Positions 1-60,893 of a DNA stretch of 64,000 bases are shown here, one piece after another. The translations under genes were made by a program, and so were the position numbers. The notes under the pieces were generated by a model. It ran no database searches. It worked only from the letters and a program-made list of their open reading frames with translations, and was not told the origin of the DNA. The DNA is taken from positions 2,046,001 to 2,110,000 of the forward strand of contig NZ_VFQE01000001.1 in assembly GCF_006717095.1 (NCBI RefSeq). The letters are read 5' to 3'. The first letter of the stretch is position 1; each line of letters opens with the position of its first letter. This stretch comes from Blastococcus colisei. Lineage in GTDB: Bacteria > Actinomycetota > Actinomycetes > Mycobacteriales > Geodermatophilaceae.

Positions 1-159
1 ATCCTCGAGAAGATGTCCGATCCGTCGGACTTCACCAGCATCGACATGCTGCGGGCCATCCGTAGCTTCGACCCGTGCATGCCGTGCACCACACACGTCC
101 ACACCGGTGCCGGTGAGGTCGTGCGCGAGGTCAACACCTGCTCCTGCGGTGGTGACTGA
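1..159 (+). CDS. [NiFe]-hydrogenase large subunit, C-terminal end (partial)
   Basis: Frame 1 is open from the window edge to TGA at 157-159, giving the last 52 residues of a protein that begins outside. It contains DPCMPCTTH, the C-terminal DPCxxCxxH signature that supplies two Cys ligands to the Ni-Fe centre in hydrogenase large subunits. About 20 residues follow the His. In this family that tail is normally removed by a specific maturation protease once nickel is inserted, and two protease-family genes lie close by. The tail carries an additional CSC near the stop. The hydrogenase group cannot be decided from this fragment. The surrounding NifU-like, HypC and ATPase genes support a hydrogenase locus. 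Confidence 0.88.
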   Translation: MLEKMSDPSDFTSIDMLRAIRSFDPCMPCTTHVHTGAGEVVREVNTCSCGGD

Positions 160-163
160 CGGC

Positions 164-946
164 ATGGCGACTCACGGGCATGGGATGCCCGTGACCGTCC
201 TCGTCGGTGGGGTGAGCGAGCTGTTCCAGCGCGACCTCGACCTCGGCCGGCTGGCCGTCGAGCGGCTCCTCGGCGAAGGCCTCGGCTCCGGCGTCCTCGT
301 CGAGGACCTGTACTACGGGGCGGTGGCTGTCGCGCAGCGGTTGGAGGACCTGCGCCCCGACCTGCTCGTGCTCGTCTCGGCGGTCCGGCGCGGACGGAGG
401 CCCGGGACGGTCGAGCGCCGGCGGATCGATCCGCCGCGGCTGACACCGGAGAAGGTGCAGGCGGCGGTCGGGGACGCGGTCGTCGGCTACGTCCACGTGG
501 ACCTCGTCGTCGAGGTCGCCGTCGGGCTGGGGGCGCTGCCGGCGCGGACGGTGACGGTGGAGGTGGAGCCCGACGAGGTCGGGCCGGGGGAGGGGTTGAG
601 CCCGTCGGCCGCCGCCGCATTCGACGACGCTCTGGCGATCGTGCGGGCCGAGGTGCGCCGAGCCCCCTTGCTCGAACTCGCCGGCGAGCTGCGCACGCTC
701 CTCGAGGGGGATCGGCTCGGGGACTCGGCCGCGCTGCGCGCAGTTCGCGCGCTGCTGGACGAGCTGGTGCGCCTCGACCGGGACGCCCGCTGGGGTGCCA
801 CGTTCCGGTTGCGGGACGAGCTCCGGCTCCGGATCGCGGCGGGCGCGGGCAGCGACGGGATGGACCACCGCGACTGGGGCCTGTGGTGGGCGCTCGTCGA
901 GGAACTCGACCGCTTGACGGCGCTGGAGGCAGTGCGCACGCCGTGA
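164..946 (+). CDS. Hydrogenase maturation protease-like protein, degenerate
   Basis: This 260-residue protein starts 4 bp after the hydrogenase large subunit stop. ATG 164 was chosen; ATG 185 is an alternative. Residues 8-160 resemble the HyaD/HybD endopeptidase fold: an N-terminal beta strand, then LLVLVSAV near the middle, PGTV, and VEVEPDEVGPGEGLS near the end. A further 80 or so helical residues are absent from ordinary family members. The N-terminal G-x-G-N-x4-D-D-x-G motif is poorly kept, and the usual Asp of LVDAV is Ser here, so nickel-sensing ligands look incomplete. A canonical homologue lies at 5621. It may be a chaperone-like partner of the large subunit or a divergent protease. 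Confidence 0.6.
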   Translation: MATHGHGMPVTVLVGGVSELFQRDLDLGRLAVERLLGEGLGSGVLVEDLYYGAVAVAQRLEDLRPDLLVLVSAVRRGRRPGTVERRRIDPPRLTPEKVQAAVGDAVVGYVHVDLVVEVAVGLGALPARTVTVEVEPDEVGPGEGLSPSAAAAFDDALAIVRAEVRRAPLLELAGELRTLLEGDRLGDSAALRAVRALLDELVRLDRDARWGATFRLRDELRLRIAAGAGSDGMDHRDWGLWWALVEELDRLTALEAVRTP

Positions 947-3612: not shown

Positions 3613-4371
3613 CTACATGCCCTCCGCCGCGCCATCGAGATCGCCGTCGTCGCCCGGCCCGGACGGTTCCAGCAGGCCCAGGTTCGGCGGCCGGACGGCG
3701 ACGCGGTTGCCGCGCGCCGTGTGCAGGACGAGGGCTCCGTCGGTCAGCACGTCGACGGCCTGGCCGGCGACGCTGGGCCCCGTCGGACCCAGCGGGATCA
3801 TCCGCGCACGGACGGATCGGCCCAGCGTCGTGCACCGGGGCGTGTAGGCCTCGAGCACGGCGTCCGCGGCTTGGGCCAGTCGCTCCTCGACCGCCGCGGC
3901 CAGCCCGGCCAGCAGCGGCCCGCGCGGTGGGAGCGCGTCCTCGACGAGCACCGTGGCCACGGCCCACTCCGTCCGCTGGGGCCCCAGCTGGACGAAGGCG
4001 CCCAGCCGGGCGAGCACGGTGTCCCCGTCCTGCGCCAGAACGGTGTCCGGCCACCCGAAGCGGACGTCGCCCAGCGCGTCGGCCAGGGCGACGGATGCGG
4101 TCACGTAGAGCCAGCCCTCCCGCTCCGGCGGCAGATCAGGGTGCAGGACCATCGAGAAGCCCAGTCCCCGCCCGGGACGGACGTGCCACGGCCAGCCGCC
4201 GCGGCCCCGCGGCGAGGCCTGGTAGTCGGCGACGACGACGGCACCGGCCGGTGCACCGGACCGTGCCCAGGCCATCGCCTCCGGCTCGGTGGACAGCAGG
4301 GCCGGATAGCTGCGGACCGGACGCGGGCCGAGCAGCTGCGCCAGCTCCCCGGCGACCAGGTCGTCGCTCAT
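3613..4371 (-). CDS. Biotin-protein-ligase-fold protein lacking the catalytic lysine
   Basis: This 252-residue protein has ATG start within ATGA of the TPR gene. Residues 45-170 follow the biotin/lipoate ligase fold. VVVADYQASPRGRGGWPW matches the nucleotide-binding loop of BirA-type ligases, GLGFSMVLHP matches the next strand, and GWPDTV stands where ligases have KWPND. The Lys of KWPND is Gly, and the downstream Lys of the KLAGILVE motif is not evident (ARLGAFVQ). Biotinylation activity is therefore doubtful. A C-terminal part resembles the small SH3-like domain. It lies inside an operon beside hydrogenase genes. A scaffold or cofactor-binding role is possible but unproven. Confidence 0.62.
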   Translation of the reverse strand: MSDDLVAGELAQLLGPRPVRSYPALLSTEPEAMAWARSGAPAGAVVVADYQASPRGRGGWPWHVRPGRGLGFSMVLHPDLPPEREGWLYVTASVALADALGDVRFGWPDTVLAQDGDTVLARLGAFVQLGPQRTEWAVATVLVEDALPPRGPLLAGLAAAVEERLAQAADAVLEAYTPRCTTLGRSVRARMIPLGPTGPSVAGQAVDVLTDGALVLHTARGNRVAVRPPNLGLLEPSGPGDDGDLDGAAEGM

Positions 4372-5600
4372 CGCCAGCCGAGCGTCGCACCGCTCCCGGC
4401 GGCGGCCCCCTCGAAATCGGCCGCCAGCCGGTCCCATTGCGGGACGGGGAACCGGGCCATGGCCGACTGCATCGTGCGGGCGAGCGCATCCCGGTCCTCC
4501 GCCGACAGCCCCGGATCACCGGCGGCCGCGACCACGGCGCGCACCATCGGGTCGTATGCCGCGGGTGGCAGTTCGAGCAGCACGTGCAGCAGGTTCTGCA
4601 CGAGGGGCAGGGTCGCGGCCGGGCGGCCCAGCGCGCCTTCGAGGAAGCCGGCCACGGCGGCCTGCCGCTCGGGAGCCGGGGCCTCGACCAGACGGAGCAC
4701 CTCCTCGCGCACCGTGGCCGTCCAGCGGTCGGGCGGCTCGTCGTCCAGCACGTCCAGCAGGTCGTTCCCGGGTGGCGGCGGCAGTCCGGCGAGCACCTGC
4801 CGGGCCTGCGAACGCACCGTGCCGGCCGCGGCCGGCACGGCGAGCGACTGCCGGGCGGCCAGGCGGGCCCGGGCCTCCTGCCCGGCCTGCGCGGCGGCGA
4901 GGGCCACATTGGCCTTGGCCATCGCGTACTCCGCGGGGCGCACGGTGCGGGGGAAGGCGCCCAGCGCCCGGCGGAACGTCTCCACGGCCTCGCTCGGCCG
5001 GTGGGTGGCGAGCAGCGCCAACCCCAGGACGTTGAGCGCGGCCCCGAGCCCCGGCAGGTCACCGGCGCGTTCAGCGAGCACGGCGGCTTCCTCGAGCAAC
5101 CGGCGCGCCGCCTCGGGATCGCCGGACGTGAGCAGGCAGCTGCCGTGCTCCCGGGCGCAGGCCGCCGCCTGCGCCGGCCGGCCGACGGTCAGGAAGGACT
5201 CGCCGGCGGCCGTCCAGGCGACCTGTGCACCGGCGGGATCCCCGGCGTCGCGGAGAACCAGCCCGAGGTTGTATGACGCCGCGGCCTGCTCCGCGGGTTG
5301 GCCGAGCGCCGCGAACGACTCCGCGACCGCCCGGAACGCCGTCGCGGCCTCCGCCCGGCGGCCCGACTCCCGCAGCGCGATGCCGAGCATGTTGCCGGCC
5401 TTCGACTCCTCCAGGCGCAGGCCCGCTTCGCCGAAGATGCGGCGGGCCACGGTCAGCGCCTCGCGTGCGGCAGCCGGTTCGCCGGCGGCCAGGAGCGCGG
5501 AGCCGAGATGGAACTGCGTCGTGGCGTGCTGCACCGGATAGCGCGAGACGGGATAGCGCGCGAGTCGCGCGGTGAGCGGTTCCGGCCGGCCTGCTGTCAT
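4368..5600 (-). CDS. Tetratricopeptide-repeat protein
   Basis: The 410-residue protein heads a six-gene minus-strand operon running to 2555. Start ATG 5600 lies 20 bp from the divergent protease start at 5621. Residues 25-260 consist of helical repeats of about 40 residues with TPR-type small residues (HLGSALLAAGEPAAAREAL, NMLGIALRESGRRAEAATAF, NYNLG-like SYNLGLVLRDAGDPAGA, NVLGLALLATHRPSEAVETF). The C-terminal 140 residues are helical without clear repeats. TPR proteins act as assembly platforms. Here it may organise hydrogenase maturation, but the partner cannot be read from sequence. Confidence 0.75.
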   Translation of the reverse strand: MTAGRPEPLTARLARYPVSRYPVQHATTQFHLGSALLAAGEPAAAREALTVARRIFGEAGLRLEESKAGNMLGIALRESGRRAEAATAFRAVAESFAALGQPAEQAAASYNLGLVLRDAGDPAGAQVAWTAAGESFLTVGRPAQAAACAREHGSCLLTSGDPEAARRLLEEAAVLAERAGDLPGLGAALNVLGLALLATHRPSEAVETFRRALGAFPRTVRPAEYAMAKANVALAAAQAGQEARARLAARQSLAVPAAAGTVRSQARQVLAGLPPPPGNDLLDVLDDEPPDRWTATVREEVLRLVEAPAPERQAAVAGFLEGALGRPAATLPLVQNLLHVLLELPPAAYDPMVRAVVAAAGDPGLSAEDRDALARTMQSAMARFPVPQWDRLAADFEGAAAGSGATLGWR

Positions 5601-5620: not shown

Positions 5621-6115
5621 GTGACCGCGATCGTCGCCTGCTTCGGCAACGTCCTGCGGGGTGACGACGGCTTCGGCCACGCGGTCGCCGAGCGCCTGGC
5701 CGCGGAGGACCTGCCGGAGGGCGCCGTCGTCCTCGAGGTCGGCATCGGCGGCATCCACCTGGTGCAGGAACTGCTGCGCGGGGTCGACGTGCTCCTCGTG
5801 GTCGACGCCGTCGATCTCGGCCGCCCCCCGGGCACCGTGGTCGTCCAGCGCCCCGACGTGCTCGACGTGGCGACGCTCTCGCCCGAGCGGCGGCGCGACG
5901 AGCTGGCCGACATGCACCTGGCGACACCGGAGAAGGCCCTGATGGTGGCGCGTGCCCTCGACGTGCTCCCGGGGGCGACCCTCGTGGTGGGCGTCCAGAC
6001 GGTCGACACCGACCGGCTGGGCCAGGGGCTGTCCCCGGCGACCGGACGCGCCGTGGAGGTGGCCGCGGCGGAGGTCCTCCGGCTGCTGGCCGAGCACCTC
6101 CCCGGCGGGGACTGA
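5621..6115 (+). CDS. Hydrogenase maturation protease (HyaD/HybD family)
   Basis: This 164-residue protein is the usual length for the family. Start GTG 5621 leads directly into the diagnostic GxGN-type motif, here CFGNVLRGDDGFGHAVAERL. Asp of LLVVDAVDLG and the PGTV turn follow. HLATPEKAL supplies the conserved His, and TDRLGQGLSPATG is the C-terminal family signature. These Glu/Asp/His positions bind nickel in the large-subunit precursor before cleavage of its C-terminal tail. The substrate is presumably the large subunit ending at 159. It is transcribed divergently from the TPR operon, so the 20-bp gap must hold both start regions. Confidence 0.85.
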   Translation: MTAIVACFGNVLRGDDGFGHAVAERLAAEDLPEGAVVLEVGIGGIHLVQELLRGVDVLLVVDAVDLGRPPGTVVVQRPDVLDVATLSPERRRDELADMHLATPEKALMVARALDVLPGATLVVGVQTVDTDRLGQGLSPATGRAVEVAAAEVLRLLAEHLPGGD

Positions 6116-6131: not shown

Positions 6132-6683
6132 TCATGCGGGTCGCGGCTGGATCTGCAGCAGCACCGGGCCCGGCGGGGGATGTGATGCGGCACCGCTGTC
6201 CGGCGCGACGTCCATCGCGACGAATCCGGGCAGGTTCTCCCGCAGCGCCTCCTCCACCCCGTACCGGAGGGTCTGGGCGGCCGAGGTGCACCCCGAGCAG
6301 GCGCCGCTGAGCCGCACCCGCACCACGCCACGCGCGACGCCGAGCACCTCGACGTCCCCGCCGTGCTCGGTGATGTACGGGCGGACGGGCTCGAGCGCTG
6401 CGCTGGCGGCCGCGATGTCGTCCACCCCGACCCCGTAGGCCTCGAACAGCCAGGCGACCGCGGGATCGCTCGACCGCACCGTCTCGGCGCTCTCGCCGAG
6501 CGCATCGGCCAGGTGGGTGACCGCCAGCCGGTGGATCGCGTCGACGCCGTCGAGGAGTTCGAACACCCGCTCCTGGACGGGTTCGTCGAAGCTCTCGACC
6601 TCGCCGAGCAGCTCCTCGAGCCGGTCCAGCAACGGGCCGAGCTCGGCGAGTGACTCCTCCGGCGTCGGCACCGTGTCAGCCAC
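6132..6683 (-). CDS. NifU-like Fe-S scaffold domain protein
   Basis: A 183-residue protein whose C-terminal half is a NifU C-terminal (Nfu-type) domain: YITEHGGDVEVLGV, then VRVRLSGACSGCTSAAQTLRYGVEEAL. The CxxC pair in GACSGC carries a transient [4Fe-4S] cluster in this family. The N-terminal 90 residues are helical and acidic, with no Cys, and could be a docking region. NifU-like genes are common companions of actinobacterial uptake hydrogenases, whose small subunit needs Fe-S clusters. It converges with the maturation protease and diverges from the ATPase at 6808 across a 124-bp gap that should hold promoters for both. Confidence 0.82.
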   Translation of the reverse strand: MADTVPTPEESLAELGPLLDRLEELLGEVESFDEPVQERVFELLDGVDAIHRLAVTHLADALGESAETVRSSDPAVAWLFEAYGVGVDDIAAASAALEPVRPYITEHGGDVEVLGVARGVVRVRLSGACSGCTSAAQTLRYGVEEALRENLPGFVAMDVAPDSGAASHPPPGPVLLQIQPRPA

Positions 6684-6807: not shown

Positions 6808-7596
6808 ATGACGACGGTGGCACGCTCTACCGCCCTCACGGTCGGCGTGGTGGGCAAGGGCGGGGTCGGCAAGACGACGGTCGCGGGTCTGCTGGCCGGC
6901 GCCTGGGCCGGGCAGGGACGGGCCGTGGTGGCCATCGACACCGACTCCAATCCCAACCTGGGCCTCTCGCTCGGACTGTCGCTGGAGGACACCGAGGCCG
7001 TTCCGGAGCTGCCGCGCAGCGCGGTGGTGGGCGGCGGGGGTGGGCTGTCAGCGGCCGAACTGGTCGAGCGGTACGGCCGGCCGACACCGGCCGGACCGAC
7101 GCTCCTCTCGGCAATCAAGGTGGCACAGGCCGGGGCAGGGTGCACCTGCGGCGGGCACGCCACCGTCCGCAGCCTGCTCGCCGACGCCCTCGCGGACGTC
7201 GACGTGACGCTGGTCGACATGGAGGCGGGGCTGGAGCATCTGAGCCGGTCCGGCGGCACGCTGGCCCATGCCGATCTCCTGCTGGTCGTCTGCGAACCCA
7301 CCCGCAAGTCGGTGGTGACCGCCGCGCGGACCGCCGCGCTGGCGGCCGAACTGGGCATCCCGCGCCTGCTCGCCGTGGGAAACAAGGCGCGCACGCCGGC
7401 GGACGAGGAGTACCTGCGGGCCGCGCTGGCGGAGGAGGGACTAGCGGTCGCCGGTGTGCTGCCGTACGAGGAGCGGATCGTCGCGGCGGATCGCGCAGGC
7501 GATCTCGGCATCCGGGCACCCTCGCCGGCGATGCTGCCTGCCCTCGAGGAGGTCCTGAGCGCGGTGGACGCCCTCGCCGAGGACGCGCCTGCCTAA
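6808..7596 (+). CDS. CooC-like nickel-insertion ATPase with CxC motif (copy 1)
   Basis: The 262-residue product is a SIMIBI-class P-loop ATPase. It has a deviant Walker A, VVGKGGVGKTT (residues 15-25, with signature Lys17), a switch DTDSNPNLGLSLG and a Walker B-like TLVDMEAGLEHL. The CxC motif Cys112-Thr-Cys114 corresponds to the metal-binding dimer-interface motif of CooC proteins, which load nickel into CO dehydrogenase. No CO dehydrogenase gene is visible, so the client here may be the hydrogenase or another nickel enzyme. It converges on copy 2, and their stop codons overlap (TAA here, TAG on the other strand). Confidence 0.82.
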   Translation: MTTVARSTALTVGVVGKGGVGKTTVAGLLAGAWAGQGRAVVAIDTDSNPNLGLSLGLSLEDTEAVPELPRSAVVGGGGGLSAAELVERYGRPTPAGPTLLSAIKVAQAGAGCTCGGHATVRSLLADALADVDVTLVDMEAGLEHLSRSGGTLAHADLLLVVCEPTRKSVVTAARTAALAAELGIPRLLAVGNKARTPADEEYLRAALAEEGLAVAGVLPYEERIVAADRAGDLGIRAPSPAMLPALEEVLSAVDALAEDAPA

Positions 7597-8339
7597 TGCG
7601 TCCCGGCCGAGTGCGGCAGCAGGCCTTCGGCCAGGCGGACCAGGGCCTGGACGCCCGGAGAGTCGGCCGCCGCGTCGAACGGGGCCTCGCCGCGCCGTTC
7701 CGCCGCGACGATCGCCGGCTCGTCCGGCACCAGCACCGGGTCCAGGCCGGGGAAGGCCGCGCGCACCCGGGACTCGTCGTCCGCGTCGCGGATCCGGTTG
7801 GCCGTGACGACCACGCGGCCCAGCCCGCCGGCCAGCACCGCCTCCGCCGCGCGGCGACCGACCTCGAGCGACTTGGCGGTCGGCTCGACGACGACGACCA
7901 CGACGTCGACCGGTTCCCCGTCCATGCGCAGGACGGTGCCGAGGCCCGCCTCGAAGTCGGCGACGACGATCCGACCGGGACGTTCCAGCTGCCCGAGCAA
8001 CTGCTCAGGTGAGATGCCGCACTACGGGCAGCCCGGCTCCGGGTTCTGGATCGCCGAGACCACGGCGAGCCGCACGCCGTCCGGGCCCGTCGTGCCGAAC
8101 CGCTCGACCAGGTCGTCCGCGCTGCCGGCGTGCGCCTCGTCGCCGGCGTTGACGGCGTCGCGCACGGTGACCAGGTGCTCGGTCACCTCCTCGCTCAGTC
8201 CGAGCGAGATGCCGAGGTTCGGGTTGGTGTCGCAGTCGAGGGCCAGCGTCTCGTGCCCATGGCGGGCCAGTGTCCGGGCCAGCACCGCGGACGTCGTCGT
8301 CTTGCCCGAGCCGCCCTTGCCCACCACAGCGATCTTCAC
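7593..8339 (-). CDS. CooC-like ATPase with in-frame UAG at a Cys-equivalent site (probable selenoprotein, copy 2)
   Basis: Read through one in-frame TAG (8022-8024), the gene encodes 248 residues homologous over its whole length to the ATPase at 6808. It has MKIAVVGKGGSGKTTTSAVL with Lys8 of the deviant Walker A, DCDTNPNLGISLG, and after the TAG VADFEAGLGTV and VVVVEPTAKSLEVGRRAA. The TAG is codon 106 in Gly-Cys-Pro-[UAG]-Cys-Gly. Aligned to copy 1 (Gly-Cys-Thr-Cys-Gly) it falls on the second Cys of CxC. A 7-bp hairpin follows 12 nt later. Sec is the simplest reading; a nonsense mutation is the alternative. Start GTG 8339 overlaps the stop of copy 3. The final stop is also TAG. Confidence 0.85.
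7992..8009 (-). promoter_or_regulatory. Probable bacterial SECIS hairpin of the CooC-like gene
   Basis: On the minus strand, 12 nt after TAG, CCTGAGC (8009-8003) pairs with GCTCGGG (7998-7992). This gives seven base pairs, one of them a U-G wobble, around a four-base loop AGTT. Bacterial SECIS elements are hairpins at this distance inside the coding region, usually with G among the first two loop bases, which holds here. The geometry closely matches the formate dehydrogenase hairpin at 16246 (spacer 11 nt, stem 7 bp). It would be bound by SelB carrying the Sec tRNA. Confidence 0.75.
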
Positions 8340-9094
8340 GAGGCCTCCTCGCGGTTGCGCAGGTCGTCCACCAGCGACCGTACTGCCGCGACGGCCGGCG
8401 TGTCCGGCCCGGCGTCGACCACGGCACGGCCCAGCCGGTCGGCGTCGCCCACCGCGGGGTCGAACGGGACGGCGCCGACCACGGGCAGGCCGGTGCCGGC
8501 AGCGACTCGCTCCGCGTCGTCGGGATTCCGCACCTTGTTGGCCACCGCGACGACCTGCGGCGCGCCGGCAGTCGCGGCCAGCCGGGCCAGGCGCCGGCCG
8601 GAGAGCAGCGACGCAGGGGAGGGCTCCACCACGACGAGGAACGTGCGCGCGTAGCGGCCCCAGGTCAGGAACGGCTGGCGGGTGCCTCCCGGGAGGTCTC
8701 CGACGATGCTCCACCCGTCGCCGGGCAGGTCGTCCAGCACCCGCTGGTACGCCCAGTGCGGGCGGGTGTTGCTCCACCGGGGCCCGCGGGCCTTGCCCAG
8801 CTGGAGGAAGCGCAGCCCGTCCGGCCCCCGCACCGCGTACCGCTCTATGGCGTCGGGCCCGGTCAGGCCCGGGCGCAGGCGGTACCGGCGCCGGCCGGCC
8901 TCCTCGTACTCCTCCACCGCGTCGTCGGGCAGCCCGGCGTCCGTCGGGTCGACGCCCAGGGCGAACGCCAGCCCGGGCATGGGATCGGAGTCCAGCGCCA
9001 GCACCCGCTCGCCGCTGCCGGCCAGCAGCCGGGCGAACGTCCCGGCCAGGGACGACTTCCCGGCGCCGCCCTTGCCCACGAAAGCCACCCGCAT
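8336..9094 (-). CDS. CooC-like ATPase without CxC motif (copy 3)
   Basis: This 252-residue protein starts at ATG 9094 and is the promoter-proximal gene of the pair with copy 2 (GTGA overlap). MRVAFVGKGGAGKSS is a deviant Walker A with the signature Lys8. LALDSDPMPGLAFALG and IVGDLPGGTRQPF correspond to the switch regions, and VVVVEPSPASLLSGRRLARL matches the same segment in copies 1 and 2. The region that holds CxC in copy 1 and Cys-Pro-Sec in copy 2 has no Cys here (LQLGKARGPRWSN), so it cannot bind metal the same way. It may form heterodimers with copy 2 or have another client. It diverges from hypC across about 100 bp. Confidence 0.8.
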   Translation of the reverse strand: MRVAFVGKGGAGKSSLAGTFARLLAGSGERVLALDSDPMPGLAFALGVDPTDAGLPDDAVEEYEEAGRRRYRLRPGLTGPDAIERYAVRGPDGLRFLQLGKARGPRWSNTRPHWAYQRVLDDLPGDGWSIVGDLPGGTRQPFLTWGRYARTFLVVVEPSPASLLSGRRLARLAATAGAPQVVAVANKVRNPDDAERVAAGTGLPVVGAVPFDPAVGDADRLGRAVVDAGPDTPAVAAVRSLVDDLRNREEAS

Positions 9095-9193: not shown

Positions 9194-9484
9194 ATGTGCC
9201 TGGGCGTTCCCGGTCAGATCGTGGCCATTCCCGATCCCGCGGCGGCGCACGCGGAGGTGCACGTCGGCGGCGTCGGCCGGGAGGTGTCGCTGGCCCTGCT
9301 CGGCCCCGGAGCAGCCCGCGTCGGCGACTGGGTGGTCGTCCACGTCGGATTCGCGATGGAGGTCATCGACGAGGCGGAGGCGCGCGCGACGCTGGAGGAG
9401 ATGCAGCGGCTGGACGACATGTACGCGAGCGCGCTGTCCGACGCGCCCGTCGTGGACGCGGGCGAGGAGTACCGCCGTGGCTGA
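9194..9484 (+). CDS. hypC: Hydrogenase maturation chaperone HypC
   Basis: The 96-residue protein starts MCLGVPGQIVAI. HypC/HybG proteins begin with MC-[LI]-[GA]-[VI]-P, and the N-terminal Cys2 carries the Fe(CN)2CO precursor together with HypD and holds the large subunit precursor. VGGVGREVSLALLG and VGDWVVVHVGFAMEVID match the remaining beta-barrel strands, and the C-terminal helix is EAEARATLEEMQRL. A GAGGAGACC ribosome-binding site precedes ATG 9194. Its stop overlaps the next gene by 8 bp, so the two are co-translated. Confidence 0.93.
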   Translation: MCLGVPGQIVAIPDPAAAHAEVHVGGVGREVSLALLGPGAARVGDWVVVHVGFAMEVIDEAEARATLEEMQRLDDMYASALSDAPVVDAGEEYRRG

Positions 9485-10265
9485 GCGGAGGCCGGGGGCG
9501 GTTCCCGGACCGGTCCTCTTCGCCCGGTACGCCTTCGCGCCCAATTCACACGGCTACTGCGGGCCGGCCGACTCCGGCGGGCTCTTCGAGTACGGCGTCG
9601 CCGGCCGGGACGACGGCGGCCTGCGCGCGATGGCGCAGCAGTTCGCCGGCGCATGGCCGTACCTGCAGCTGATCGCGGGCGCCACCGGTCTGGCCGACCC
9701 GCTGGACCGCCGGGTGGTGGAGGCCTACTGGGTGGGCAGTCCCCGGCTGGACCTGGTGAGCACCCGTGCGGTGGGCGATTCCATGGAGGACCGGTTCCGC
9801 GCCGTCACAGGGGCGACGTTCTCGACCCTCACCGAGGGCGTGCTCGCCGGCGGGGTGCCGCACCACAGTTTCGCGGTGTTCTGCATCTACCCCTACACCG
9901 GCCTGCTGACCGACGGGCGCAAGGCGCCGCACGCGCTCACCGTGCTGGACCGGTGCCGGATCCGCTGGGGACGGGTGCAGGCGGTCCAGGGCGACCAGGT
10001 CGTGGTGGAGAGCCAGCCACTGAGCTGGGACGGTCGCACCCTCCAGCTCGGGCCGCCCGTGCCCGAGACCGTCGTGCAGTCGGTCGACGGGGTCGGGATG
10101 GTGGGCACCGTGCAGCCCGGCGACTGGGTGTCCCTGCACTGGGAGTGGGTGTGCGACCGGCTGACCGAACGGCAGGTCGCCCGGCTGCGCCACTACTCGG
10201 ATCGGCACCTGGCCATCGTCAACGACCGGCAGACCCGTTCGCGGGTGCCTGCGCTCCTCGACTGA
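9477..10265 (+). CDS. Hydrogenase-associated conserved protein (DUF6390-like)
   Basis: This 262-residue protein starts at GTG 9477 inside the end of hypC. The N-terminus FARYAFAPNSHGYCGPADSG, followed by LQLIAGATGLADPLDRRVVEAYWVGSPRL, matches my memory of the DUF6390 family, found with actinobacterial hydrogenase genes. The middle contains GGVPHHSFAVFCIYPYTGLL, with paired His and a Cys that could be functional. The C-terminal third is beta-rich (VQAVQGDQVVVESQPLSWDG, PGDWVSLHWEWV). No catalytic family is recognised. Coupling to hypC argues for a hydrogenase maturation or quality-control role. Confidence 0.72.
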   Translation: MAERRPGAVPGPVLFARYAFAPNSHGYCGPADSGGLFEYGVAGRDDGGLRAMAQQFAGAWPYLQLIAGATGLADPLDRRVVEAYWVGSPRLDLVSTRAVGDSMEDRFRAVTGATFSTLTEGVLAGGVPHHSFAVFCIYPYTGLLTDGRKAPHALTVLDRCRIRWGRVQAVQGDQVVVESQPLSWDGRTLQLGPPVPETVVQSVDGVGMVGTVQPGDWVSLHWEWVCDRLTERQVARLRHYSDRHLAIVNDRQTRSRVPALLD

Positions 10266-15661: not shown

Positions 15662-18600
15662 ATGAAGACCTGGCTGGACGCGTGGCCGGTGTTCCGGCAG
15701 CTGACCGGATCCGACCCTTCCGGGCGGGGCGAGGCGGTGCGCAGCAAGCGCACCGACACCCTCGTGCCGCGCACGGCGTCCGCGGACCGCGTCGTGCAGA
15801 GCATCTGCCCGTACTGCGCGGTGGGCTGCGGGCAACGGGTCTTCGTCCAGGACGAGGAGGTCACCCAGATCGAGGGCGACCCCGACTCGCCGATCAGCCG
15901 CGGCCGGCTGTGCCCCAAGGGCGCGGCGAGCAAGAGTCTGGTCACCAGCGCGACGCGGCAGAGGAAGGTCAGGTACCGCCGTCCGTACGGGACGGAGTGG
16001 GAGGACCTCGATCTCGACACGGCGATGGACATGATCGCCGACCGGGTGATCAAGACCCGCGGGGAGACCTGGCAGGACGAGGACGAAGTCGACGGACAAC
16101 CGCGCAGGCTGAACAGGACGATGGGGATAGCGAGCCTCGGAGGGGCGACCCTCGACAACGAGGAGAACTACCTCATGAAGAAGCTCTACACCGCCCTGGG
16201 CGCGGTCCAGGTCGAGAACCAGGCGCGCATATAGCACTCCTCCACGGTCCCCGGTCTGGGGACCTCTTTCGGCCGTGGCGGCGCCACGACGTTCCAGCAG
16301 GACCTGGCGAACGCCGACTGCATCGTCATCGAGGGCTCGAACATGGCCGAGGCCCACCCGGTGGGCTTCCAGTGGGTCATGGAGGCCAAGGCCAGGGGAG
16401 CGACGATCATCCACGTCGACCCGCGGTTCACCCGCACCAGCGCCCTGGCCGACCTGCACGTCCCGCTGCGTGCCGGGAGCGACATCGCCTTCCTCGGGGG
16501 GTTGATCAACCACGTGCTGCGGAACGAGAAGGACTTCCGCGAGTACGTCGTCGCCTACACCAACGCCGCGGCAATCCTGCGGGAGGACTTCCAGGACACC
16601 GAGGACCTCGACGGGCTCTTCTCCGGCTACGACCCGGAGACGGGTCGGTACGACGAGACGTCGTGGCAGTACGAGGGTGTTTCGGTCACCGCGGCGGCCG
16701 GTCAGCGCCAGTCGCCCAAGCCGGGGGCCTCGGGCAGCGCGCAGCCGGGGTCGGAGGCGTCGGACGCGGAGGAGCACGAGCAAGGCACGTCGGAGCAGAC
16801 CGGCAGCGGCGGGATCCCGGTCGGTGGGAAACCGCGGCGTGACGAGACGCTCCAGCACCCGCGGTGCGTCTACCAGGTGCTCAAGCGGCACTACGCGCGC
16901 TACACGCCGGAGATGGTGCACGAGGTGTGCGGCATCGAGCCGGCGGTCTTCCTGAAGGTGGCCGAGGCCCTGACGAGCAACTCCGGCCGCGAGCGCACCA
17001 GCGCCTTCGTGTACTCGGTCGGCTGGACCCACCACACCGTCGGCGTGCAGTACATCCGGGCGGCCAGCGTGCTGCAGGCCCTCCTGGGGAACATGGGGCG
17101 TCCCGGCGGCGGCATCATGGCGCTGCGCGGGCACGCCAGCATCCAGGGGTCGACCGACATCCCGACCCTCTACAACATCCTCCCCGGCTACATCCCGATG
17201 CCGCACGCCCGGCAGGACCGCGACCTCGACGACTTCGTCGCAGAGGCCGCCGGATCCGCGGGCTACTGGGGCAACATGAAGAAGTACACGGTCAGCCTGC
17301 TGAAGGCCTGGTGGGGCGACGCGGCGCAGCCGGAGAACGACTTCTGCTTCGACCACCTGCCGCGGCTGACCGGCGACCACAGCTCGTACCAGACGGTCGC
17401 CCAGCAGATCCAGGGCACCGTGCCCGGCTACTTCCTGGTCGGGGAGAACCCGGCGGTCGGGCACGCCAACGCCAAGATGGCGCGGCTCGGGCTGGCCAAC
17501 CTCGAGTGGCTGGTCGTCCGCGACCTGCAGCTGATCGAGTCGGCGACGTTCTGGGAGAACGGCCCGGAGATCGAGACCGGTGAGCTGGTCACCGAGCAGA
17601 TCCCCACCGAGGTGTTCTTCCTCCCCGCGGCGGCGCACGTGGAGAAGGACGGCTCGTTCACCAACACCCAGCGGCTCCTGCAGTGGCACTCCCAGGCCGT
17701 CGAGCCGACCGGGGACTGCCGCAGCGACCTGTGGTTCTACTTCCACCTCGGCCGGATCGTCCGCGAGAAGCTCGCCGGCTCCGCCGACCCGCGGGACCGG
17801 CCGATCCTGGACCTGACGTGGGACTACCCGACCCACGGCAGCCTCGACGAGCCCAGCGCCCACGCCGTGCTGCGGGAGATCAGCGGCACCGGACCGGACG
17901 GCACGGCGGTGAGCGGCTACACCGAACTGGAGGACGACGGGTCCACGTCGTGCGGCTGCTGGATCTACTCGGGTGTGTTCGCCGACGAGGTCAACCAGGC
18001 CAATCGCAAGAAGCCGCACACCGAGCAGGACCTCGTGGCCCCGGAGTGGGGCTGGGCCTGGCCGATGAACCGGCGGATCCTCTACAACCGGGCCTCGGCC
18101 GATCCGGACGGCCGGCCGTGGAGCGAGCGGAAGAAGTACGTCTACTGGGACGAGGACGCCGGGAAGTGGACCGGCCCCGACGTCCCGGACTTCCAGGCCA
18201 CCAAGCGGCCGGACCACGTACCCCCCGACGGCGCCCAGGCCGAGGACGCCATCGGCGGGGCCGACCCGTTCATCATGCAGAACGACGGCAAGGCCTGGTT
18301 GTTCGTGCCCTCGGGGCTCGCCGACGGGCCCATGCCGACGCACTACGAGCCGGCAGAGTCGCCGGTGCCCAACCCGCTGTACTCGCGCCAGGCCAACCCG
18401 GCGCGGCTGGAGCTGCGGGGCGCCTGGAACCGGGCGAACCCGGCGATGAACGAGACGTTCCCGTTCGTCGTCACCACCTACCGGCTGACCGAGCACCACA
18501 CCGCCGGTGGGATGTCCCGGACCCTGGAGTACCTGGCCGAGCTGCAGCCGGAGTTCTTCTGCGAGGTGAGCCCCCAGCTGGCCGCGGAGCGGGGGCTGGA

Positions 18601-60210: not shown

Positions 60211-60893
60211 GTGGGTGTCCTTTCCTGGCCGGCCCGGCCGATTCCGGGCGCTTCGGTCAGACCTCCCGTGCCCCGGCCGCGGACGGCTGATCGGCGGTGA
60301 GTCGGGTCGTCACCGGGGTGACACACAGCCGCCCCGATGCACCCCCCGGGTGTGACGGAACGATGACCGCTACCGCCGGCGGGAACCGGCGGGCGGTGCG
60401 GAGGCGAGATGCATCACGCCCCTGATCCCGGCTCCGGGATTGTCACGGCCCGATAACGACGGCTACCGTGACGCGGTCCGGTCGGAACGTTCCCGCCCCA
60501 TCCGGGGAGGCCGTGCCGGACGCCGCCGAGTCGCCCGAGGCCGAGACCGAGTCGCGGGCGAGCCGGGGACCCACCGCAGTACTGGGGTGAATCCTGCTCC
60601 GAGCTCCGCTCGGGGCGGGTAGGGCGCCTTCTGAGCCCGAATCCGTCAGCTAACTCGGTAGGCGGCCACGGAACAGTTCGAAGAAACGGAGAGCCGCAGC
60701 ACGCCGCGCCCCTGGGTGCGCCGTGCACGCAGCAGTCGACACGCACCGTCAGGCGGAACCGTCCCGCGCTGACCGGTGATCCGCTGGGCGCCCAGCCCGC
60801 GGTGCTGCCCCCTCGACCCACAGCGGTGGATCGCCTGCGCCCCCGAGCGCCGGCCGGTCCGCCCCGCCCTGTCATCCGGAGCACTCGCACCTC
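60211..60893. other. 683-bp intergenic region ahead of the transglycosylase gene
   Basis: It holds a probable c-di-AMP riboswitch (60600-60745) and, upstream, the promoter regions of the two divergent genes (lipoprotein at 60210 and transglycosylase at 60894). The rest, about 380 bp, has no gene I can support. Confidence 0.6.
60600..60745 (+). promoter_or_regulatory. Probable c-di-AMP riboswitch (ydaO/yuaA)
   Basis: The core reads CCGAATCCGTCAGCTAAC then TCGGTAGGCGG, followed by CACGGA and CGGAGAGCCGC. This closely resembles the actinobacterial c-di-AMP riboswitch consensus I remember (CCGAAxCCG, CAGCUAAC, CGGUAGGCG, CGGA). The location 150-300 bp ahead of a cell-wall lytic gene is typical, because c-di-AMP lowers expression of such genes in actinobacteria. 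Boundaries are approximate. Confidence 0.75.

Follow-up and report, generated by a model that had tools for sequence, protein, structure and literature searches.

We suggest that the in-frame UAG codon 106 of a CooC-like ATPase gene in Blastococcus colisei is, almost certainly, read as selenocysteine (Sec), and that the gene belongs to a hydrogenase-linked ATPase family in whose metal motif Cys appears to have been exchanged for Sec recurrently. Comparison of the relatives detected an interchange of codons at this site, a downstream hairpin with compensatory changes, tRNA-Sec anticodons matched to the codon, the Sec machinery and linkage to [NiFe]-hydrogenase genes. The protein is very probably a Sec-containing, CooC-like, nickel-handling ATPase and a part of the [NiFe]-hydrogenase maturation set. 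An earlier, sequence-only reading of this DNA had proposed a single such gene and understated the case: the family extends beyond this gene and beyond codon 106, and includes forms with Sec at two places of the motif (U-P-U) and Sec forms of two paralogues. The features of the window (the whole 64,000-nucleotide stretch analyzed) are listed in Table 1.

Table 1. Features of the Sec ATPase locus and of the second UAG selenoprotein gene in the window
Feature	Position	Strand	Basis
[NiFe]-hydrogenase large subunit, 3' end (start upstream of the window), C-terminal DPCMPC	1..159	+	family search
Conserved protein, family unknown, follows the large subunit in several such loci, start approximate	185..946	+	
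BirA-like protein, recurs in these hydrogenase loci, below family cut-offs	3613..4437	-	
TPR protein recurring in these hydrogenase loci	4368..5600	-	
Hydrogenase maturation protease (HycI/TIGR00072)	5621..6115	+	
NifU-like domain protein	6132..6683	-	
Type A CooC-like ATPase with intact CxC, sharing 37% identity with the Sec ATPase	6808..7596	+	translation, alignment
CooC-like P-loop ATPase (type B), UAG codon 106 predicted to be read as Sec, ends at UAG codon 249	7593..8339	-	translation, family search, alignments, 66 other type B loci
SECIS-like hairpin CCUGAGC-AGUU-GCUCGGG, with a 12-nt spacer to the UAG	7992..8009	-	sequence, fold, 54 Sec-form relatives
UAG codon 106, predicted to be read as selenocysteine, second position of the CxC motif	8022..8024	-	translation, 67-locus comparison, CooC1 alignment
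MinD/CooC-like ATPase without CxC (type C), overlaps the Sec gene start by 4 nt	8336..9094	-	family search, locus comparison
HypC hydrogenase formation chaperone	9194..9484	+	
DUF6390 protein, directly after HypC	9486..10265	+	
Formate dehydrogenase UAG-Sec codon, in the second UAG selenoprotein gene recognised in the window	16232..16234	+	sequence; arms GGUCCCC/GGGGACC start 11 nt downstream

The translated open reading frame 8339-7593(-) has 248 codons and a single internal TAG (8024-8022, ...PEPGCP-U-CGISPEQLL...), as had been claimed. The terminator of the gene (7593-7595, -) is also UAG; the four other UAG relatives examined end in UGA. UAG would thus serve as both Sec and stop in one gene, and the context must decide. 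Both halves of the frame align with the intact ATPase at 6808, as proposed, although the match is not quite gap-free, and the UAG aligns directly with the second Cys of its C-T-C motif, the supposed offset of one residue being absent. NCBIfam has no family at the curated cut-off for the Sec ATPase and Pfam gave broad P-loop families only, leaving the protein without a specific curated name there. ARAGORN found no tRNA gene in the window, and Rfam at gathering thresholds found no SECIS-type family in the 64 kb; the one family matched was the c-di-AMP riboswitch (RF00379, 64.2 bits) at 60535-60679 (+).

The best sequence match among solved structures was CooC1 (E 1.1e-12), whose Cys112 and Cys114 align with C104 and U106, confirming the CooC-like identity suggested from the letters. 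The CxC metal-binding pair of CooC is accordingly present in the alignment as Cys/Sec. The CooC1 structures (PDB 3kje, 3kjg, 3kjh, 3kji) are presumably those of the Carboxydothermus hydrogenoformans protein, and the CxC pair of CooC1 is held to bind nickel through thiolate ligands in the dimer. The structure predicted for the Sec ATPase is a good model of the MinD/NifH-type fold, and the deviant Walker A motif is present. By fold search, CooC was not separable from MinD and NifH, which score as well as CooC1. Together with the hydrogenase linkage described below, the CooC-like identity is well supported.

The Sec ATPase gene is located near the genes for the [NiFe]-hydrogenase small and large subunits, a HycI-type protease, a NifU-like protein, HypC and the DUF6390 protein. 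DUF6390 also occurs elsewhere, for example in the hydrogenase loci L043 and L046, and is possibly a hydrogenase accessory protein. The large subunit was considered as a further selenoprotein and rejected, its DPCMPC end having Cys and not Sec. Relatives of the ATPase were collected by a search of the bacterial family (112 genomes, 8 with a match at E 1e-20 or better and an orthologue), from a collection of named genomes (55 loci) and from a phylum sample (396 genomes; counting that of the window, 13 matched at E 1e-35 or better, and the match in one of these, G222, is of another type). Hydrogenase subunit genes were detected in 22 of the 55 named loci within the fetched stretches, some of which are short, and HypD in 20 of the 55, often with HypE and HypF; the family assignments were checked.

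HypB matched at E 1e-10 in 17, and over the cut-off in 9, of the 39 genome handles that carry these ATPases; with five handle pairs taken as one genome each (G380/G520, G008/G516, G026/G546, G043/G507, G104/G513), the latter count becomes 8 of 34 genomes. Two genomes without a HypB match, those of Haloechinothrix halophila (L059, G531) and Amycolatopsis marina (L045, G518), carry HypC, HypD, HypE and HypF in the locus, which suggests that the ATPases can do the work of HypA/HypB. In the window's genome the hydrogenase subunits and HypC are present, and the HypA, HypB and HypD models gave no match at E 0.001; HypD, HypE and HypF are in the locus of the close relatives L034 and L078. Given no HypD match, the hydrogenase of the window's strain may be dormant or matured otherwise; it may bypass the known route or stay immature.

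Nickel delivery is the function that best fits this setting, and we regard it as rather probable. The Sec or Cys could instead serve electron transfer or Fe-S cluster binding, as in a NifH-like reductase or redox switch, a role that we consider unlikely. It would agree with the fold scores of NifH and MinD, with the NifU-like protein in the locus, and with the redox roles supposed for most uncharacterised selenoproteins in the part of PMC13188914 used here. However, CooC1 is clearly the best match by sequence, with the CxC pair aligned, and HypB is over the cut-off in only 9 of the 39 genome handles. The CxC spacing is also unlike the ligand arrangement of NifH. Far less probable is the maturation of another nickel enzyme, CO dehydrogenase, with the hydrogenase neighbourhood arising by chance: CooC1 itself serves CO dehydrogenase, according to its PDB molecule name, but the window's genome gave no CooS-type CO dehydrogenase match (CO_DH_cata, TIGR01702), and the hydrogenase linkage recurs. 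CO dehydrogenase was rejected as the client on this ground, and the protein is for the same reason called CooC-like and not CooC.

The prediction of Sec rests first on the codon interchange. Among the eight orthologues of the family search, the site was UAG in five, UGA in two and not covered in one. Once duplicate rows, rows of other types and rows that could not be used had been removed, the searches together left 67 type B genes for comparison, and codon 106 was UGA in 49, UAG in 5 and Cys (TGC or TGT) in 13. Random sense codons without compensation were not seen in these loci. The sequence-only reading had anticipated that UAG, UGA and Cys would interchange here, with a hairpin only beside UAG or UGA, and this was the pattern of the 67 loci, with one exception (L035). 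The first Cys of the motif, codon 104, is also UGA in 35 of the 54 Sec forms, giving U-P-U-C; most of the named carriers belong to the Acidimicrobiia, alongside bins of Euzebyaceae and Egibacteraceae and a single bin of Chloroflexi. The protein tree requires at least six Sec/Cys changes at codon 106 and at least seven at codon 104. Its starred branches hold 4 independent Sec/Cys pairs, of which 3.5 agree and 0 are opposite, too few for a significant sign test.

The rows left out of the 67 were L009-L014 (the same contigs as L034, L078, L040, L037, L043 and L039), L015 (site not covered), L088 (type B copy truncated where the contig stops), L086 (which has UGA and the hairpin but is frameshifted against the rest of the family) and L103, L105, L106 and L108 of the phylum sample (motifs unlike type B, three with UGA). 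L092 and L047 encode identical proteins. A distant type B relative in L108 (1504-2220, -) has UGA and then Gly-Gly replacing CxCC, and the hairpin GGGC-AGTT-GCTC.

The hairpin proposed 12 nt after the TAG, with a stem of 7 bp and the loop AGUU, was found at 8009-7992; one of its pairs is G-U, and RNA folding placed it in the minimum-energy fold. The isolated hairpin is of ordinary stability for this GC-rich sequence (z = 0.19, equalled by 103 of 200 shuffles), and stability was dropped as evidence. Its conservation, unlike its stability, is beyond chance. With at least 6 of 7 pairs and the loop AGUU counted as presence, the hairpin was detected in 54/54 Sec forms versus 1/13 Cys forms of the type B loci (Fisher p 2.2e-12, relatedness ignored). 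Codons 112-115 are GAG CAG TTG CTC in every Sec form and variable, largely synonymously, in the Cys forms; codon 114, inside the hairpin, is TTG in 54/54 Sec forms, and TTG makes up 8.1% of the 1162 other Leu codons of these genes. Stem pair 1 is C-G or G-C and pair 3 is C-G, U-G or U-A, so that both sides change and mostly still pair. Altogether 374 of 378 cells pair, a value reached by 0 of 20000 shuffles; when each of the 9 distinct stems is counted once, the observed pairing is equalled by 667 of 20000 shuffles. The exceptional L035 has Cys at codon 106 and an intact hairpin, and the best tRNA-Sec match in its genome, at 45.5 bits, is below the family cut-off; a recent change from Sec to Cys would fit this.

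The bSECIS model of PMC13188914 (Fig. 2 legend) has a loop of 3-9 nt whose first two positions include a G, a stem of 4-16 bp, the loop 16-37 nt after the codon and an MFE of at most -7.5. We found the loop AGUU on the 7-bp stem 19 nt from codon 106 and -11.7 kcal/mol for the stretch. The loop of the U-P-U relatives is 25 nt from codon 104 and 19 nt from codon 106, both within the 16-37 nt range, so that one hairpin could decode both UGA codons, 6 nt apart. A likeness to the formate dehydrogenase element had been claimed as well. The 7-nt arms starting 11 nt after its TAG are indeed there, but the minimum-energy fold of the 42-nt stretch at that site picks another pairing.

The decoding machinery agrees with the codon. 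The window's genome has one strong match to the Rfam tRNA-Sec model (66.4 bits) with the anticodon CTA, and this tRNA-Sec(CUA) gene is located between selA/selB and selD, all three over curated cut-offs. ARAGORN labelled the same gene tRNA-Pyl, and a second tRNA-Sec match over the cut-off (48.2 bits) is tRNA-Ser by ARAGORN. For the named loci, the genomes of 45 of the 55 were tested at a threshold of 60 bits or more, and tRNA-Sec was detected in 30 of 35 Sec-form and 5 of 10 Cys-form genomes; the five Sec-form genomes in which it was not seen are all drafts or bins. The anticodon could be read in all 35 genomes with the tRNA, and was CUA in four UAG genomes and UCA in 26 UGA and 5 Cys genomes. 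With the window's genome included, the anticodon matches the codon in 5/5 UAG (CUA) and 26/26 UGA (UCA) genomes.

In the phylum sample, tRNA-Sec was present in 15 of the 22 genomes with any Sec ATPase, each time with UCA. It was not seen at E 1e-8 in the other seven, which are drafts or bins of 70 to 640 contigs. The handles G251, G311, G128 and G252, with a Sec-form ATPase and no tRNA-Sec match, are listed as 94-98% complete; three of the seven genomes are of this completeness, in two genera. The mere presence of tRNA-Sec was rejected as a predictor of the Sec ATPase, since it is also found in 15 of 18 genomes without one and says little; the match of anticodon and codon says more. The use of UAG for Sec was reportedly first described by Mukai et al. 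in 2016. The Geodermatophilaceae decode UAG as Sec in formate dehydrogenase, UGSC-motif proteins and AhpC, according to the part of PMC5330540 used here.

Standard annotation would take the UAG for a genuine stop (a pseudogene or a misread base, with the downstream half a relic), and the ordinary stability of the local hairpin would allow this. Such an explanation is highly improbable and is already contradicted by the comparison: 54 loci from several classes share a stop at this codon, the downstream frame is kept and is conserved in the rows aligned, and hairpin and anticodons track the codon. Least probable of all is readthrough by another suppressor, a pyrrolysine or glutamine tRNA, which would suit the ARAGORN label and the UAG terminator of the same gene, but the CUA tRNA matches the tRNA-Sec model and lies among the sel genes, the relatives carry UGA or Cys, and pyrrolysine at codon 106 was rejected because the PylS model gave 21.5 bits against a cut-off of 178 in the window's genome, i.e., none over the cut-off.

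Selenocysteine is probably not confined to type B. Up to four ATPases per locus were detected: A and D (CxC), B (C-P-C-C) and C (no motif). At the position of the first Cys, type D carries UGA (UxC) in 14 distinct loci of the phylum sample, and also in L084 and L071, which are Chloroflexi and Gemmatimonadales bins; among genes best matching type A, the motif is U-A-C in L206 and U-T-G in both L207 and L208. We compared 75 A and D sites, sampled by motif pattern with some Sec sites missed (such as L103 and L106). Stems of at least 6 bp with G in the first two loop places were found at 14/14 Sec versus 10/61 Cys sites (mean 4.2 bp at the latter; Mann-Whitney p 1.3e-6, relatedness ignored), 9 of the 14 Sec sites being close relatives with one kind of stem and the loop mostly at 15 nt. 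Several type D loops at 15 nt are just outside the bSECIS range of 16-37 nt. The type D stems GCCACG/CGUGGC and the type A stems GUCACG/CGUGAC are one paired change apart.

The type A-like U-T-G ATPases of L207 (850-1617) and L208 (1729-2481) have Sec first and Gly second, a one-selenolate motif, and the hairpin GUCACG-GUC-CGUGAC. In L211, a type B U-P-U and a type D U-M-C gene (464-1180, 16235-16990) flank the hydrogenase genes of one locus. The occurrence of Sec at either or both places of the motif and in three paralogous types points to a likely strong selective reason.

We propose the following mechanism. The tRNA-Sec(CUA), SelB and the hairpin 12 nt downstream would insert Sec at the UAG, so that the cell would make a protein in which Sec replaces the second Cys of the CxC metal-binding motif. 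The ATPase would dimerise, and the two motifs would hold a metal ion, probably nickel, through thiolate/selenolate ligands. ATP binding or hydrolysis may then drive the transfer of nickel to the large subunit of the hydrogenase, in many cases in genomes where no HypB was detected. The selenolate could provide both good soft-metal binding and easier recovery from oxidation, which would suit hydrogenases working in air. A broader scheme, for which the chances appear evenly balanced, is a selenium-dependent family of metal-insertion ATPases (CxC, CxU, UxC and UxU paralogues in a single kind of [NiFe]-hydrogenase locus) that would replace HypA/HypB in nickel delivery; in it the UxU dimer would offer four selenolates to one metal ion, and one SECIS would decode two UGA codons.

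These results raise the possibility that nickel can enter [NiFe]-hydrogenases by a route that needs neither HypA nor HypB. They widen the known use of UAG for Sec, and the U-P-U forms are a natural setting in which to ask how a single bacterial SECIS could act on two codons. The catalogue of prokaryotic selenoproteins lists 119 families and subfamilies (PMC13188914, Table 1), and this table has no CooC-, MinD- or NifH-like ATPase and no UxU motif. No CooC-, MinD- or NifH-like selenoprotein ATPase was found among the literature matches listed, a scope outside which the original UAG-Sec report falls. The predicted family is thus an addition to the 119-family catalogue, and a nucleotide-driven, probably metal-handling one, not a thiol oxidoreductase.

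The known UAG-Sec proteins of the Geodermatophilaceae share tRNA-Sec(CUA) and UAG with the ATPase, and AhpC has a described bSECIS, but they are of other protein families, and no ATPase is named among them in the part of PMC5330540 used here. Other prokaryotic selenoproteins also have two Sec close together in one protein; Table 1 of PMC13188914 has UxxU and UxxxxU for these, in contrast to the UxU of the ATPases. HypB (with HypA) is a candidate for a system that works alike, an NTPase handling nickel for the [NiFe]-hydrogenase, but it is a GTPase and belongs to another family; the window's genome gave no match to it, and it exceeds the cut-off in the minority of handles given above. CobW is a family of P-loop metal chaperones, and we regard the CobW-related selenoprotein as the nearest in kind in the catalogue. 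It has a predicted Sec in a protein named after the cobalamin synthesis protein CobW (NF041053, PMC13188914); the family is a different one, with UxxC, whereas the CooC-like ATPases have CxU, UxC and UxU. CooC1 has the same MinD/NifH-fold P-loop ATPase architecture, with its CxC aligned with C104 and the predicted Sec106, but it has Cys only and belongs to CO dehydrogenase, whereas the ATPases of the window are found in [NiFe]-hydrogenase loci.
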